The notes below the pieces were generated by a model. It made no database searches and was not told the DNA's origin. It saw only the letters and a list, made by a program, of their open reading frames with translations. From assembly GCA_002011735.1 (NCBI GenBank), contig MTOQ01000090.1, positions 1-39,996 on the forward strand: 39,996 nucleotides of DNA, written 5' to 3'. The stretch is from Nitrospirae bacterium JdFR-81. GTDB taxonomy: Bacteria > Nitrospirota > Thermodesulfovibrionia > UBA6902. Below are positions 27,788 to 34,042 of this stretch, in pieces (the stretch's first letter is position 1; every line of letters starts with the position of its first letter). Made by a program: the position numbers and the translations under genes.

Positions 27788-28726
27788 CTATAATTTAAAG
27801 GTCTTATAAAGTTCAAGTGGATAGAGGATCAAGCCGATAAGGAATAGGGCGATTGAGGGATAAAGGAGGGGCACCATCGCATCCCTCACAAAAACCACCT
27901 CTATCCATTTCCGTGTCCTTCCAGCCTTAAGGAGTAAGCTATTACCCTCCAGGGTCTGATTATCGCTGAGCAGGCCGTCAAGGATCACCTCCCCTCCCCT
28001 CGTAACCCTCACCGCATATGAGGGGCTGTTGAGCCTGTAGTGTATAGGCCCTATATCCCTGCCTCCGTCCCTCCTGTAGCCTGCAAGCCGTATGGTGAGG
28101 GAGTATCCATCATTAAGGGGTATCGTCCTCTCCCTGCCTGGCGGGAGCATCCTGATCTTTGGCAGGACAAAGACCCCTGAATCTGAGATAACCTCAAGCG
28201 TTGGGGATATATTCGCATCGTTTATATATGCATAGCCTGAGGAGGTCATCGTGAACGGGAATGTCCTGATGGCAAGCCTCCTCCCCCTGTCATTAATGGT
28301 GGCCTCAACACCCCTGACCAAGATACCGGAGGCCTCGCCAACAACGGCTATCTCATCAGGTATATCCATCCTTATATCCACAAGAACCTGGCCATCACCT
28401 GTGCTTTCAGAGGCGGCCATTCTGTATACAGTCTCATCCCTTAAGATGTGTGAAAGATATACACCTCCTATGAGGACAGACAGGGACAGGAGCATGATGG
28501 TTGATGGAAGGGCATTGAACCTGGAGGACGAGAACCTCCTGAGCCCCTTCAGTAGGATGTGTATGGAAAACAGGACCACGGGTAGGGCGTAAAGGGGCTC
28601 TGTCCCTGCAAGGTTCAGGAAGGCGTGTAACGGCTCATCATATTTAAAACTCAGTTGAAGATACATGCCAGAAAGCGATGCAATGAGTATCAGTGTAAGC
28701 CTTCCTGATGTCAAGGTTCTTATCAT
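27788..28726 (-). CDS. Membrane protein of unknown function
   Basis: 312 residues from ATG 28726, which overlaps the stop of the FTR1-DUF2318 gene (TGATG). Three N-terminal membrane helices (about 5-25, 45-65, 80-95), a soluble beta-rich region at about 105-275 that is probably periplasmic, and one C-terminal helix. The layout of helices around a periplasmic domain recalls ResB-like proteins, but no ResB motif or heme ligand is evident. Context suggests a partner of the iron-permease-like fusion upstream. Confidence 0.6.
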   Translation of the reverse strand: MIRTLTSGRLTLILIASLSGMYLQLSFKYDEPLHAFLNLAGTEPLYALPVVLFSIHILLKGLRRFSSSRFNALPSTIMLLSLSVLIGGVYLSHILRDETVYRMAASESTGDGQVLVDIRMDIPDEIAVVGEASGILVRGVEATINDRGRRLAIRTFPFTMTSSGYAYINDANISPTLEVISDSGVFVLPKIRMLPPGRERTIPLNDGYSLTIRLAGYRRDGGRDIGPIHYRLNSPSYAVRVTRGGEVILDGLLSDNQTLEGNSLLLKAGRTRKWIEVVFVRDAMVPLLYPSIALFLIGLILYPLELYKTFKL

Positions 28727-30003
28727 CAATCCCCCACCCATCTCTCATAGGTCTTTATGATATGTGATCTCCTGAGGATCAACCTGTCATCCTCAAGCCT
28801 GTATTCAAGGGGGATGGGATTACATCCCCCTGACTCTCCCATTGACTGGACCGGTATGGGTGTCCCGCAGTATTTACACACTATATATCCTCCCCTCTGG
28901 ATGTAACCCTCTGGCGGACATATATCACATGCATCAAGCGCTGCAATGACCTTGCCATCAGGCCTCATCATGATGAGGAACCTGTATGTCTCACCCTTAT
29001 AGTCAAAGGAATACTTTCTGATCCGTCCATCAGAGATGTCGCCGTCCTGGCCTGTCAGGGGGATCTCTATCTCATCGCCTTCCACTATAATCGGCATTGG
29101 CTCAGGATCATAGACCGGGTTGAGTCGCAGGTTTGCTGAATGTAAAAGGACAATCGATATAAACAGGGACAGGACAACAGGTGTGCCCCTCCTTATAAGC
29201 TCATCTATGTAGGTTGAGATGACCTTCCTCCTCTCTGCCTTCTTCTCTATCCCCTCTGTGGATGGCTCAGGGCTGAGCATGAGCCTGAGGAACACATAGA
29301 TCATGGGCATAAATATGATGATCGCTGTGATGGCCATCGCCACCCTCTGTGAACCGAGATAATCAAAGAACCCAGCACACGGGGGCCTCACGATCCCTCC
29401 GTGTGGTATGAGGAAAGTGCCTTCAAGAAATGGGATGAGGGATGACAGGAGGTGGTATATGCCACGCTGTAGTGAGACAATGACAGGCGTGTCGTCAAAC
29501 TCGTTCATACCACCAAAGAGGAAACAGAGGGTGGCGATGATGATCATGACACTCCTGTGGTCAATAAACCTCCTCAGGTCCAATCCTGACAGGGACCGCG
29601 TGGCAACGATGAACACCACCACACCCATCAGGGCCCCTGTAGCTGCATATAAATAGACACCACCTCCCCTCAGGGATACACCATCCATCACCACCTCTGT
29701 GAGGATGGCCGATGGCAGAAGGAGTGCGAGTATCACGCCTATAAGCGGATATACAATGCCTCCTGTTGATACAAGGGACAGGAGGAGTATCATGATGAAT
29801 GAATAAAATAGGAAGCCTGAATACATCTTTTCTGCAAGCCCTGTGACAGGGTGATTTATTAAGGTTAAGAGGACTCCGGCAAGGATGGTGATGGCAGCAG
29901 ACAGTATGAGGGCCTTTCTGTGTTCTTTATAGACGCCTGTTATGAGGAAAAGGATTAACGAATATTCCAGGAACTCTCTTAAGGTTATGAGTAACAGGGC
30001 CAT
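28726..30003 (-). CDS. FTR1-like permease fused to DUF2318 Fe-S/metal domain
   Basis: 425 residues from ATG 30003. The N-terminal ~240 residues are a polytopic membrane region starting with TLREFLEYS, the REXXE iron-ligand motif of FTR1-type iron permeases (only one such motif is visible). After a further helix near 275-290 comes a periplasmic DUF2318 domain with Cys pairs at about 360/363 and 377/380 (CDICPPEG, CKYCGTPI) and GGCNPIPL. DUF2318 proteins are linked to iron or copper uptake (Ftr-type systems). It follows the B12 radical SAM gene by 4 bp and overlaps the next gene. Probably imports iron for cytochromes or Fe-S proteins. Confidence 0.8.
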   Translation of the reverse strand: MALLLITLREFLEYSLILFLITGVYKEHRKALILSAAITILAGVLLTLINHPVTGLAEKMYSGFLFYSFIMILLLSLVSTGGIVYPLIGVILALLLPSAILTEVVMDGVSLRGGGVYLYAATGALMGVVVFIVATRSLSGLDLRRFIDHRSVMIIIATLCFLFGGMNEFDDTPVIVSLQRGIYHLLSSLIPFLEGTFLIPHGGIVRPPCAGFFDYLGSQRVAMAITAIIIFMPMIYVFLRLMLSPEPSTEGIEKKAERRKVISTYIDELIRRGTPVVLSLFISIVLLHSANLRLNPVYDPEPMPIIVEGDEIEIPLTGQDGDISDGRIRKYSFDYKGETYRFLIMMRPDGKVIAALDACDICPPEGYIQRGGYIVCKYCGTPIPVQSMGESGGCNPIPLEYRLEDDRLILRRSHIIKTYERWVGD

Positions 30004-30007
30004 CAAG

Positions 30008-31456
30008 TTATGGTGTGGACTCTATGATCCTCTTTACCTCCTCTGGCATCTGTCCTATATCACCGATCTTCTTCTTGATGAATGAGTTGCTCATCATCAG
30101 CTTCATGGATGTCATCATGTACTCCTTCTTGAATGTGTCCTGCTTTTCTTCCTGCATCTCTGCGTATTTGTGCATATAGAACCCCCTGTAACAGTCAACA
30201 ATAGCCCTGTCGAGCTCCTCAAGGGTCATGGCCTTTGGTTTTATTATCGGGTCAATGAGGTTATACTTCCTGTAATCCGTCACGACTATATAATCCTTCA
30301 CCTCCTCATATATGTCTGAATATGGCCATGGAGCGATGGCAAGGAAGTGTGCGAAGTCGGGATTGAACTCTATCGCAAGCTCAAGGGTCCTGGCAATCCG
30401 CTCCTCTGTCTCGTCAGGGTATCCAAGGATCATGGAGGTCTCTGTTATTATACCCACCTCCCTGAGCAGGGAGAGGGCCTTCTTCGACTCCTCAACACTC
30501 AGATCCTTCCTCATATGATCCAGGCTCTCCTGCTCTGCGGCCTCTGTGCCAACATATATATGTATAATCCCTGCCTCCTTGTATTTATCAAGTATATCCT
30601 CATCACGCACTATATCAGGGGCCCTGGTCTCCATCAGGATCCTCATGTCAATCTGTCTCTCTATCACAAGGTCAAGGAGCCTCTCCCACCTCTGACGGTC
30701 TGCAGTTGGATATTCATCGGTAAAGAGCACGAGATTGACCCCGAAGTCCCTGTTTAACACCTCCATCTCATCCACTATATCCTCAGGGCTCCTCGCCCTC
30801 CACTTCCTCAGCCAGTATTTCTGCTGGGAACAGAAGGTGCACTCCTTGTCACATCCCCTTGATGTGGAGATGGCCCCAAGCCTTGAATCAGGGATGATAA
30901 AGTATCTATAATCCTCCCAGTCAAGAAGGTCCCACGCCATTGGAAGGGCATCAAGGCTATGAAGGAGTGGCCTTGAAGGGGTGACCCTTATTGTATCTCC
31001 ATCCCTATACACTATGCCCTCAACCCTGCTCAGGTCCCCTCCATCTTGAATCGTCCTGAGCAGCTCCACTATCGTCCTCTCCCCCTCGCCCCTTATGATG
31101 AAGTCGATGGCCCTGCTCGTGGAGAAGACCTCATCATACATAAAAGAGGCATGGACCCCACCCATGATGGTTATTATCTCCGGGTCTATCCTCTTTGCTA
31201 ACTCCACGACCTTGATCGCATCAACCACCGTGCATGTGATCGCTGAGACAGCCACAAAATCAGGCCTTGATTCTACGATCTTCTCCTCTATCTCCTTATA
31301 TCCAACAAACTTTGTCATGGCATCATATATCTCGGCATCAAAGCCCGCAGTCCTCACGACCCCTGCAAGATAGACATAGTAAAGCGGCACCCATCTTCCG
31401 GCAACCTCGACCACCCCTGCATGAAATGGTGGTGTTATGAACAGTATCTTCTTCAC
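30008..31456 (-). CDS. B12-binding-domain radical SAM protein (BchE-like class)
   Basis: 482 residues from GTG 31456, overlapping the previous stop as GTGA. Residues 1-140 have the cobalamin-binding Rossmann pattern (GGVHASFMYDEVF; IRGEGERTIVELL); the radical SAM core has CDKECTFC (Cys202, 206, 209), and YVGTEAAEQESLDHM and MILGYPDETEERI follow. The C-terminal extension is helical. Reaction unknown; BchE-like enzymes act on tetrapyrroles and lipids, and its place among heme-delivery and iron genes makes a tetrapyrrole or lipid substrate worth testing. Confidence 0.85.
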   Translation of the reverse strand: MKKILFITPPFHAGVVEVAGRWVPLYYVYLAGVVRTAGFDAEIYDAMTKFVGYKEIEEKIVESRPDFVAVSAITCTVVDAIKVVELAKRIDPEIITIMGGVHASFMYDEVFSTSRAIDFIIRGEGERTIVELLRTIQDGGDLSRVEGIVYRDGDTIRVTPSRPLLHSLDALPMAWDLLDWEDYRYFIIPDSRLGAISTSRGCDKECTFCSQQKYWLRKWRARSPEDIVDEMEVLNRDFGVNLVLFTDEYPTADRQRWERLLDLVIERQIDMRILMETRAPDIVRDEDILDKYKEAGIIHIYVGTEAAEQESLDHMRKDLSVEESKKALSLLREVGIITETSMILGYPDETEERIARTLELAIEFNPDFAHFLAIAPWPYSDIYEEVKDYIVVTDYRKYNLIDPIIKPKAMTLEELDRAIVDCYRGFYMHKYAEMQEEKQDTFKKEYMMTSMKLMMSNSFIKKKIGDIGQMPEEVKRIIESTP

Positions 31457-31983
31457 CTCTCCTTATCCTCCCCGATCCCTTCCTGTGTGGCAGGTTTATT
31501 AAGGACATATTCGATGGCCTTTATGAGCTCATCCTCTGTAAACCCCCTTGGGACCTTCTTCTGAACTATCCCATCCCTGTCTATCACCACTAATCCCGCA
31601 CCATAGACTATCCCGTATTTGCTCGCTATAAGGTTCCCCTTATCATACCCAACACCTGACTCTATCTCATGCTTTATCATAAAGTCAATTATCCTGTCCC
31701 TCCTGTCCTGAAATCCAAGCCACACAACCTTCAGGCCCTCCTTGCTGTATCTATCCTCGAGCCTCTTCACGAGAGGCACCTCCTTATCGCATCGCCTTCA
31801 CCAGCTTGCGAAGAAATATAGGATTATGGGCCTGCCGATCAGATCTTCAAGGTGTATCTCCTCACCTGTGAAGAGGTCTTCCACGGTAAAGTCAAAGGCA
31901 GGGAAGGGGACAGGTGGCCCCTTTGTGCATGAGGCGGCAAGGATAATAAGGATGGACAGATATATAACCCCTCTTTTTAACAC
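31453..31983 (-). CDS. TlpA/ResA-like thioredoxin lipoprotein, predicted selenoprotein (Sec62)
   Basis: 176 residues if UGA 31800-31798 is read as selenocysteine. GTG 31983 follows GGAG and lies 8 bp after the previous stop. Residues 1-19 are a lipoprotein signal (LAASC, Cys19), so it is anchored outside the inner membrane. Residues 28-60 show the TlpA fold start (DFTVEDLFTGEEIHLEDLIG, ILYFFASW). The codon after ASW is TGA, and the same frame goes on RRCDKEVPLVKRLE to residue 176, so the redox motif is W-U-R-R-C where relatives have WCxxC. A hairpin suited to a bacterial SECIS lies 26 nt after the TGA. The usual cis-Pro loop reads YGAGLVVID, without Pro. In an operon with ccsA and resB, the likely role is reduction of apocytochrome CxxCH cysteines. 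Confidence 0.82.
31761..31777 (-). promoter_or_regulatory. Candidate bacterial SECIS hairpin
   Basis: On the minus strand GCCTCT (31777-31772), loop CGTGA, AGAGGC (31766-31761): a perfect 6-bp stem with a 5-nt loop. The loop begins 27 nt after the UGA and has G at its second position, matching the known bSECIS pattern of a short stem-loop 16-37 nt downstream with an early loop G. Confidence 0.6.
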
Positions 31984-31991
31984 CCCTCTCC

Positions 31992-32171
31992 TTATCTCCT
32001 GGTCTTATACAGTCCTGATATCCACCCTATCAGAAACCCTAACAGGGCGCCTGAGGCCTCGTGAATATAGGCCATGGGCGTGGTAAGCTGCATCTCGCCA
32101 AAATAGAGTATGGAGAATATTATCCCTCCAACAAAACCAAGGATGGTCCCTATCACGATCCTCTTCCTCAT
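31992..32171 (-). CDS. Small membrane protein (59 aa)
   Basis: ATG 32171 directly follows the resB stop; the frame ends at TAA 31994-31992. The product has two hydrophobic segments (IGTILGFVGGIIFSILYF and ALLGFLIGWISGL) and a basic end. No homolog recognised. Its place between resB and the TlpA-like gene suggests a small partner in cytochrome maturation. Confidence 0.7.
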   Translation of the reverse strand: MRKRIVIGTILGFVGGIIFSILYFGEMQLTTPMAYIHEASGALLGFLIGWISGLYKTRR

Positions 32172-32870
32172 TCACTCCTCCTTCCCTATCTTTGTATAAA
32201 ATATCCCCACTGCCCCTATCACAAATAAAACCGCCCCGGCCACCTCCCAACCGGCACCTGGATCGTTAACAAGCCCTATGATGGCCTTCTTCCTCTTCCT
32301 GTAGGCGGATTTTGCAAAGAAACCCACACCTTTGTAAAAGGAGGGCCTGCCAACCTCGATTATATGGGGCTTGTCATCTATGCTTATATGAATCCTCCAG
32401 GTTGTTGAACTCTGGTCAGGCCTCTTGAAGAACTCTATATCATCGAGCCTGATGGTGAAGCCCCTCACCCTGTAAAGATTGCCTGGCTTTAGTGTCACAT
32501 CCTCCTTATACCCTGTCAGTGCGCTTATACCATGTCCAAGGAGCACGATCAGTATTGATATATGTATTATCTGTGGAGACAAGACCCTGACAAGTCCCCT
32601 CAACCTCGTCTTCTTTATAATAGCATCAACAGTACATACAAGCATATTAACGGACATCAGTCCCATCAGGAGTATCAGTATATATATCCAGTATATCTTA
32701 TCAAGGTAATCACTGTTCTTATTGAGCCATCCAAACAGTGGCATCTCGTTTATCTCTGAAAAGATATCAAGGTTCTGCGGTATATATAACGACCCTGCCA
32801 GGAAGACCACTATACTCAGGCCTGCAAGCCAGAGAAAGGTCTTTATGGAGAGGAAGAACCTCAGCATCAT
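32172..32870 (-). CDS. resB: ResB-like cytochrome c biogenesis protein
   Basis: 232 residues. Helices at about 12-30, 60-80 and 100-118, a periplasmic domain to about 200 and a last helix near 207-225. SIKTFLWLAGLSIVVFLAGS and the helix with IIHISILIVLLGHG (His103, His113) are ResB/CcsB features. It is shorter than the usual 400-500 residues, a compact form seen in some anaerobes. Directly follows the CcsA paralog (TAG then ATG). With it, it forms the heme-delivery and ligation complex. Confidence 0.85.
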   Translation of the reverse strand: MMLRFFLSIKTFLWLAGLSIVVFLAGSLYIPQNLDIFSEINEMPLFGWLNKNSDYLDKIYWIYILILLMGLMSVNMLVCTVDAIIKKTRLRGLVRVLSPQIIHISILIVLLGHGISALTGYKEDVTLKPGNLYRVRGFTIRLDDIEFFKRPDQSSTTWRIHISIDDKPHIIEVGRPSFYKGVGFFAKSAYRKRKKAIIGLVNDPGAGWEVAGAVLFVIGAVGIFYTKIGKEE

Positions 32871-33599
32871 CTAAAACTGTGTCCAGGGACTGCCGATTAT
32901 TGGCATCACGCCTAAATAGGCAAAGATCAATACCGGAAATCCAGCCACACCAAGGACCACCGAGACCCTGCCTGAAAGCGCCTTCACCTGCCTTCCATGC
33001 AGATAGAAACCATAATAGAACCAGACTATGGTTATCCACAGCTCCTTCGCTGTCCAGAGCCAGTAGGAGCCATAGGTATAATAGAACCAGAAGCTTCCAC
33101 CTATCAAGGAGAAGGAGAAGAACAGCCACCCAAAGAGTGCCAGTCTGTACTGGAGCGTCTCATGAGTCAGGGCCTTCCCCCTGAGATAAGAGATGCCAGC
33201 AACCGAGCTGAGGATAAAGAAAGCATAACCGATTATGAGAAAGACTATATGCATATAAAACCACTTTGACTCCATATAGGGCTCTATCGAATCCATCCTT
33301 ATCTGGAAGACCGCAAAGAAACAGAGGAGGATGACAAATAGCGGGAGTGTGTCAAGGAGCATATTCAGTGGGATCCTCTTGTTCAGGTAGAAAAAACCAC
33401 CTGCGACTATTAAACCCATGATAAGGAGTATGTCGTGCCTCTCTGTAACAGGGACCCACCCAAGATACAGACCCCTGTATACCATATAGCCGACATGGAG
33501 TAATAGACCTGCTATAAAGAGGTTCCTTCCTTTCCTGTCCCCAGTTAATGAGAGGCTGTATAGGGCAATAAATGCCAGTATCCAGGGGGCATTTATCAT
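32871..33599 (-). CDS. ccsA: Second CcsA-family cytochrome c assembly protein, divergent WWD motif
   Basis: 242 residues, about seven or eight helices. The heme-handling motif at 176-188 reads YGSYWLWTAKELW, where the usual form (as in the paralog at 8130) is W..FWRWDPKEVW: Asp and Pro are replaced by Thr and Ala. His45-type and His117/His201-type ligands remain possible (HVGYM, YMHIVF, FYLHGR). Overlaps the preceding membrane gene by 4 bp and is followed at once by resB. May serve a particular cytochrome set. Confidence 0.85.
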   Translation of the reverse strand: MINAPWILAFIALYSLSLTGDRKGRNLFIAGLLLHVGYMVYRGLYLGWVPVTERHDILLIMGLIVAGGFFYLNKRIPLNMLLDTLPLFVILLCFFAVFQIRMDSIEPYMESKWFYMHIVFLIIGYAFFILSSVAGISYLRGKALTHETLQYRLALFGWLFFSFSLIGGSFWFYYTYGSYWLWTAKELWITIVWFYYGFYLHGRQVKALSGRVSVVLGVAGFPVLIFAYLGVMPIIGSPWTQF

Positions 33600-33985
33600 C
33601 GGGGCATACTTTCTCTTACTTCCTTGGCCTTAGCCCTTATCTTCAACCAGATATATGCTCCACTTCCAACAAAGATAAAGGCAAGCACATGCTTGACAAT
33701 AAGGGCAGGGACCTGTCCCTTCCCTGCATACTGCGCCCACTCAAACTCCTTGTAAAAATAGGTCCTCGGTATCCCGCCAAGGATTATCCATGCAAGGGAG
33801 AATCGGGCAAGGGATGTGATGCTCCTGTAAAGCCTCAGAAAATAGGCCCTCACCTCGGGGTTTTCTGAATTGCCAAACCTCTTATAAATGACCCACATGG
33901 AGACACCACTTGCAAGTAACAGGGCAGTGGCAACATCATGAAAATAGTTATTCATCATCAACATGATCCCTGCTCCCTGGCTCAT
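33596..33985 (-). CDS. Conserved small membrane protein at head of Ccs operon
   Basis: 129 residues from ATG 33985 (GGGGTG upstream; a GTG nine bases earlier is also in frame). Three or four helices, with NNYFHDVATALLLASGV at the first and a conserved-looking ARFSLAWIILGGIPRTYFYKEFEW between the middle ones. No family name comes to mind. First gene of the operon, overlapping ccsA, so a cytochrome-maturation accessory role is likely. Confidence 0.7.
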   Translation of the reverse strand: MSQGAGIMLMMNNYFHDVATALLLASGVSMWVIYKRFGNSENPEVRAYFLRLYRSITSLARFSLAWIILGGIPRTYFYKEFEWAQYAGKGQVPALIVKHVLAFIFVGSGAYIWLKIRAKAKEVRESMPR

Positions 33986-34042
33986 CTTACACACCCCACA
34001 GGACAGTCCGTCACTATTTTTAACGGATTATTAAAAACAGTA

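Follow-up and report, generated by a model that had tools for sequence, protein, structure and literature searches.

A predicted selenocysteine-containing, ResA-like protein without cis-proline in Thermodesulfovibrionia, encoded near cytochrome c assembly genes

What is to be made of a gene whose only internal stop codon falls exactly on the active site of the protein that it would encode? Such a gene, here called sec-resA, lies on the minus strand at positions 31453-31983 of the window, by which we mean the whole stretch of 39,996 nucleotides that was analysed. It starts with GTG at 31983, ends with TGA at 31455-31453 and, with an internal TGA translated as U, gives a protein of 176 residues. 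The single internal stop is the TGA at 31798-31800 (minus strand), codon 62 of 176, in the context ASW-TGA-RRC, and the protein sequence around it reads ...YFFASW-U-RRCDKEVPLVKR.... An initial annotation, made from the sequence, described a lone TGA in an otherwise open frame at the first Cys of a WCxxC motif and predicted a selenium-containing lipoprotein of the TlpA kind. The description of the frame was borne out, with the gene on the minus strand; a plus-strand reading of the same interval was rejected, as it has stops in frame. Under the standard code sec-resA is split into two pieces of 61 and 108 residues, and it is therefore likely to be mis-annotated in public genomes.

Conservation of the TGA codon and the selenocysteine machinery

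In ResA, the residue that aligns with the internal TGA is the first Cys of the active site, in agreement with the proposal that Sec (Sec62) takes the place of that redox residue. Protein and profile searches identified 18 orthologs of sec-resA, 17 in Thermodesulfovibrionia and one elsewhere in Nitrospirota. All 19 members, which are spread over eight families, have TGA at the Sec62 codon, and Cys, Ser or any other residue is found in none. The random stops or substituted residues among relatives that the initial annotation had named as counter-evidence do not occur, and where its suggested alignment of homologs does place a Cys at residue 62, this is solely in distant ResA homologs. The orthologs score 186-301 bits, with one member clipped by a contig end at 164, and the next matches in the class reach at most 81 bits; those that we read are ResA-like proteins of the ordinary sort, which with few exceptions carry Cys and cis-proline.

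No Cys ortholog was found at any taxonomic depth that we searched. In 230 genomes of the class, stop-free sequences score no more than 81 bits, barring one C-terminal fragment that was split off a Sec member. A search through 396 genomes of the phylum, and a scan of the genomes of 84,980 species whose reach is limited by the two peptide patterns that it used, yielded nothing but further Sec members, each of them from Nitrospirota. In a maximum-likelihood tree 18 members form one clade (support 100/100) on a long stem of 0.96 changes per column, with zero Cys sequences inside it, and this clade is separate from two other clades of UxxC selenoproteins.

The sequence beyond the TGA also behaves as coding sequence. 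For the closest pair of genes, the 108 codons 3' of the TGA give a dN of 0.046 and a dS of 0.93 (dN/dS about 0.05); dN is low in other pairs too, and their dS approaches or exceeds saturation. The pattern is that of selection on a protein that is produced by read-through. These observations bear on the alternative that the TGA is a nonsense mutation in a pseudogene, or a Cys codon miscalled in sequencing. The codon is indeed a single base away from TGT and TGC, and a good number of the genomes were assembled from metagenomes. However, an identical TGA across eight families and 19 genomes, purifying selection beyond it, a covarying hairpin (see below) and a complete selenocysteine machinery all stand against such an error; the conservation of the TGA refutes it, and we give it a negligible probability.

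The initial annotation had set, beforehand, the presence or absence of this machinery as a point on which its prediction should be judged, and selA, selB, tRNA-Sec and selD were all found. In the genome carrying sec-resA (2.05 Mb, 96% complete), contig C16 bears selA (619 bits), selB (364 bits) and tRNA-Sec side by side; the tRNA matches Rfam with 73 bits and is called tRNA-SeC, anticodon TCA, by ARAGORN. The selD gene (318 bits; L052, G000:C61:7913-8827) is on contig C61 and has one in-frame TGA. The SelD of this genome is thus probably a selenoprotein as well, as selenophosphate synthetase is known to be elsewhere. SelA is present in 202 of 230 genomes of the class Thermodesulfovibrionia, including 17 of the 18 in-class genomes that carry sec-resA; the exception, G112, is fragmented into 300 contigs.

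A changed genetic code, or suppression, by which TGA would stand for tryptophan or some other standard residue, would also keep the frame open, which is all that speaks for it. Set against this are the TGA with which sec-resA itself ends, the Cys, not Trp, that homologs carry at residue 62, and the presence in this genome of the selenocysteine machinery and other selenoprotein genes. We consider this reading extremely improbable.

A covarying hairpin downstream of the TGA

A bacterial Sec codon should be followed by a bSECIS element, and the initial annotation described a hairpin with a 6-bp stem, a 5-nt loop and G at loop position 2, some 26 nt after the TGA. The shape was confirmed. The hairpin occupies positions 31761-31777 (minus strand), with the stem formed by 31777-31772 and 31766-31761 and the loop, CGUGA, at 31771-31767. 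The distance of 26 nt is correct for the start of the loop but not for the stem, which begins 20 nt after the TGA. In the window sequence alone, however, the hairpin is not significant (z = 0.08), with 106 of 200 shuffles folding equally well; the hairpin as first described is therefore, by itself, no evidence.

Its significance arises only across the 19 orthologs. In their ungapped alignment, columns 24-29 pair with columns 35-40 in 93.9% of cells, and two-sided changes are seen in five of the six stem pairs. The covariation is 0.449, compared with 0.160 in shuffles, none of 500 being as high, and it is destroyed when the partner columns are slid by one to three. Furthermore, RNAalifold returns the identical stem when given no structure as input.

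Because the stem falls within the codons for PLVKR, we also used a control in which synonymous codons were swapped among the sequences within each column, while every protein was held fixed. The observed 107 of 114 paired cells compare with 92.8 ± 2.4 under this shuffling, for which the maximum in 2000 trials was 102. The mean minimum free energy is -7.9 kcal/mol, against -5.6 kcal/mol for the synonymous shuffles, and the observed value beats all 300 that were scored. The most telling pair joins the third base of the Pro70 codon with the first base of the Arg74 codon, and is found as U-A, G-C and C-G. Loop positions 2-3 are G-U in all 19 sequences. Among 18 Cys homologs, the same columns form a mean of only 1.9 of the 6 pairs.

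The published bSECIS model has an apical loop of 3-9 nt with G in the first two positions, often as G-U or G-G, at 16-37 nt from the UGA (PMC13188914). The sec-resA hairpin agrees with it in loop size, G-U placement and distance, and a search of the window at Rfam gathering level gave no match. With the machinery, the TGA in 19 of 19 members and the covarying hairpin in place, the prediction of a Sec-containing TlpA-like protein is well supported. The sequence evidence indicates that the UGA is almost certainly decoded as selenocysteine and, short of experiment, the selenoprotein reading of sec-resA is near certain.

Fold, gene neighbourhood and proposed function

If sec-resA encodes a selenoprotein, of which kind is it and what might it do? 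The read-through product matches the Pfam families AhpC-TSA (58 bits), Redoxin and Thioredoxin_8, as expected for the TlpA/ResA kind. The best NCBIfam model is ResA (NF002854), at 68.2 bits and below the cut-off of 170; none of the curated NCBIfam models covers the sec-resA clade at its cut-off. When a profile of seven orthologs is compared with the PDB, ResA structures rank first, and the best solved-structure match of an AlphaFold2 model (pLDDT 85, pTM 0.78) is Bacillus subtilis ResA (TM 0.91, normalised to 1st9; 1.7 Å). In the alignment of 18 members, Sec62, Cys65 (31789-31791, minus strand), the Trp preceding Sec62 and Glu68 are all invariant. Cys65 is the resolving Cys of the U-R-R-C motif, and Glu68, three residues past it, presumably stands at the place of ResA Glu80. 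As to the predicted lipoprotein, the signal peptide of this protein ends in a lipobox-like ...AASC, and a lipobox-like Cys is present in 16 of the 18 aligned members, this one included, and missing from L076 and L084.

The initial annotation also noted a missing cis-proline, a residue that is otherwise strongly conserved, and this proved to be a character of the whole clade. Where ResA has PLP, the members have YG[AG]G, so that cis-proline is replaced by Ala or Gly in 18 of 18; here it is Ala129 (31597-31599, minus strand), placed by HMM alignment with ResA 4nmu. The loss is meaningful because of what is known of this residue. In the CcmG/ResA-like protein HP0377, the P156T change kept in vitro activity, abolished cytochrome maturation in vivo, did away with the interaction with CcdA and left the protein oxidised, a defect that its authors assigned to contact with CcdA (PMC5909903). 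The cis-proline may also keep metals away from the CxxC (PMC2757866). Within the genome that carries sec-resA (96% complete) no DsbD_TM or CcdA match lies above its cut-off, the best candidate being a DsbD_2 protein.

Since the residue that normally prevents such binding is gone, the selenoprotein might bind metal or haem through Sec62 and Cys65 and act as a metallochaperone, not as a disulfide reductase. The uniform Ala or Gly, and neighbouring genes that handle haem, iron or tetrapyrrole-like substrates, would suit this function, but the Glu past the second Cys and the other surroundings of a reductase are retained, and we regard it as unlikely.

The neighbouring genes in the window are all on the minus strand. 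Upstream of sec-resA they encode, in order, a 132-aa membrane protein (33596-33994) that has no Pfam or NCBIfam match above cut-off, a CcsA-type haem protein (32871-33599; Cytochrom_C_asm, 99.9 bits), a short ResB-like protein of System II cytochrome c assembly (32172-32870; 23.5 bits, Pfam cut-off 24.6) and a 59-aa membrane protein (31992-32171), which is directly upstream of sec-resA in 17 of 18 loci whose sequence reaches that far. The 132-aa protein is likewise next to sec-resA in most relatives. Downstream follow a B12-binding radical SAM protein (30008-31456), the gene start of which overlaps the sec-resA stop by 4 nt, a cysteine-rich DUF2318/FtrD-like membrane protein (28726-30006), with orthologs that have a weak FTR1-like N terminus, and a further membrane protein (27788-28741), which in relatives has larger orthologs with weak ResB matches. 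The radical SAM protein is BchE-like (416.7 bits, cut-off 481), in a host that we do not expect to make chlorophyll, and is kept near sec-resA in several relatives at 65-74% identity. Orthologs of the last two membrane proteins, as a pair, are found at L105, L106, L107 and L137.

CcsA, ResB or both lie within about 8 kb of sec-resA in 11 loci (the window and 10 others), several of them on the opposite strand. Neither is present within 8 kb at L105, L106 and L108, three loci whose flanks are complete, and all three do have the DUF2318 protein. Proteins with paired CxxCH motifs indicate that the genome encodes multihaem c-type cytochromes, and an ordinary Cys-containing ResA-like paralog is encoded elsewhere in it (C7:40562).

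From these data we propose that the ribosome reads the internal UGA as Sec by means of SelB, tRNA-Sec and the bSECIS hairpin. Fold and motif suggest a ResA/TlpA-like thioredoxin-fold product anchored to the outer face of the inner membrane and, with established thioredoxin chemistry, they point to Sec62 as the attacking nucleophile and to Cys65 as the residue that would resolve the mixed selenosulfide. From gene context, the likeliest task, at somewhat better than even odds, is to reduce apocytochromes c at their haem-binding CxxCH cysteines for the upstream CcsA/ResB-type synthetase. With cis-proline gone and no CcdA above cut-off, a different re-reducing partner is probable; speculatively, this could be the cysteine-rich DUF2318 membrane protein of the cassette. 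We put the probability of the whole explanation, a Sec-containing ResA-like reductase that serves apocytochrome c and is re-reduced by a partner other than CcdA, at about 0.65. The role in cytochrome c maturation suggested by the initial annotation is thus plausible, with CcsA and ResB directly upstream; because cis-proline and CcdA are missing, and the DUF2318 protein is a neighbour of no less constancy, we infer this role and do not treat it as established. The three loci without CcsA or ResB, and the Cys-containing paralog, also count against it.

The chief rival, drawn by analogy, is that the selenoprotein serves the DUF2318/FTR1-like membrane protein, by holding the cysteines of the latter, or the iron that it handles, at the proper redox state, and does not serve apocytochrome c. 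The model here is Campylobacter iron uptake, in which the TlpA-like FetE and FetF are linked to FetA, which is a DUF2318 protein. These periplasmic thioredoxins are encoded with a DUF2318 protein (PMC10783030), genes for which nearly always map to clusters of the Fet kind (PMC6083913), and the DUF2318 protein is encoded near sec-resA in 15 of 18 testable loci, even where CcsA and ResB are not nearby. However, the genome has no match to PF10634, the iron-binding P19/FetP family that is the hallmark of such systems, and a Campylobacter-type Fet system was rejected on this ground. In addition, ABC genes of the FetBCD type are not seen beside sec-resA, the FTR1-like similarity is weak, and CcsA/ResB and the ResB-like protein belong to the cassette too. 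A DUF2318 partnership in place of the cytochrome role is a possibility that we rate well below even odds, and the two may be compatible. A joint reading is equally tentative: the Sec-only ResA branch could work in a new selenium-dependent, periplasmic haem or iron pathway, with re-reduction free of CcdA/DsbD and possibly a metal at the Sec/Cys pair. The DUF2318/FTR1-like protein, the ResB-like proteins and the 59-aa membrane protein would be its conceivable partners.

If apocytochrome c reduction is the true role, it would be the first selenium-dependent step in cytochrome c maturation, as far as the literature searched shows, and this in bacteria that make multihaem cytochromes; we found no paper linking selenocysteine to ResA or to the maturation of cytochrome c. 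Few selenoproteins have a known physiological partner. Furthermore, a clade with Sec in 19 of 19 members, no Cys ortholog found and cis-proline lost offers a natural experiment on the retention of Sec and on the purpose of cis-proline.

Comparison with known selenoproteins and ResA-like systems

UxxC selenoproteins of the thioredoxin fold, TlpA-like ones included, are already known. Those in Table 1 of a 2026 review (PMC13188914) include a Prx-like thiol:disulfide oxidoreductase (PF00578), a TlpA-like protein that resembles thiol-disulfide isomerases (cd02966) and a Redoxin protein (PF08534), each with the UxxC motif. The first of these shares with sec-resA the Sec at the first Cys and a TlpA-like fold. 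A second TlpA-like UxxC selenoprotein gene of the same genome (L056, G000:C7:30552-30959) probably belongs to it; this protein has the motif WATWUPWCRKELPSL and the hairpin GGAAGG-AGUUG-CCUUCC, and its family is present in at least eight relatives. Unlike the sec-resA product, this protein has kept its cis-proline, and the WATWUPWC proteins and the sec-resA members form separate clades, each with 100/100 support. A third TlpA-like selenoprotein clade (L030, G047:C23:15845-16300; L034, G050:C189:7271-7675) was seen in just one family of the class, has the motifs ASWUPFC and ASWUSYC and retains cis-proline (TGTPNTF, RGTPNTF). A further TGA-containing TlpA-like protein (L066, G033:C16:8552-8911; FWATWUPTCRSELP) lies on a long branch.

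The known kind that covers sec-resA is the thiol-disulfide isomerase-like selenoprotein (cd02966), also TlpA-like and UxxC, which was described from four marine sequences of the Sargasso Sea set and has widespread Cys homologs (PMC1088965). By description it differs from the sec-resA clade, which has no cis-proline and for which no Cys ortholog was found. The WAxxUGC selenoprotein (NF041054, UGC-containing TlpA) is ResA-like as well, but its Sec is in a UGC motif, and sec-resA scores 32.7 bits against that model's cut-off of 300. Campylobacter jejuni FetE and FetF resemble the sec-resA product as periplasmic TlpA-like proteins encoded with a DUF2318 protein, and differ in their Cys sites (CPSC, CGVC) and in the accompanying ABC transporter and P19, the latter missing here.

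The closest counterpart is B. subtilis ResA (CcmG/CcsX type, cd02966), which the sec-resA product resembles in its fold, active-site position, Glu three residues past the second Cys, membrane anchoring and ResB/CcsA neighbourhood, and from which it differs by Sec for the first Cys and Ala or Gly for cis-proline. What is new, in summary, is a Sec-only ResA-like clade that lacks cis-proline and may overlap with one of the families of PMC13188914, together with the conserved cassette in which its genes lie, which also encodes a DUF2318/FTR1-like protein, proteins resembling ResB and, in most cases, CcsA/ResB.
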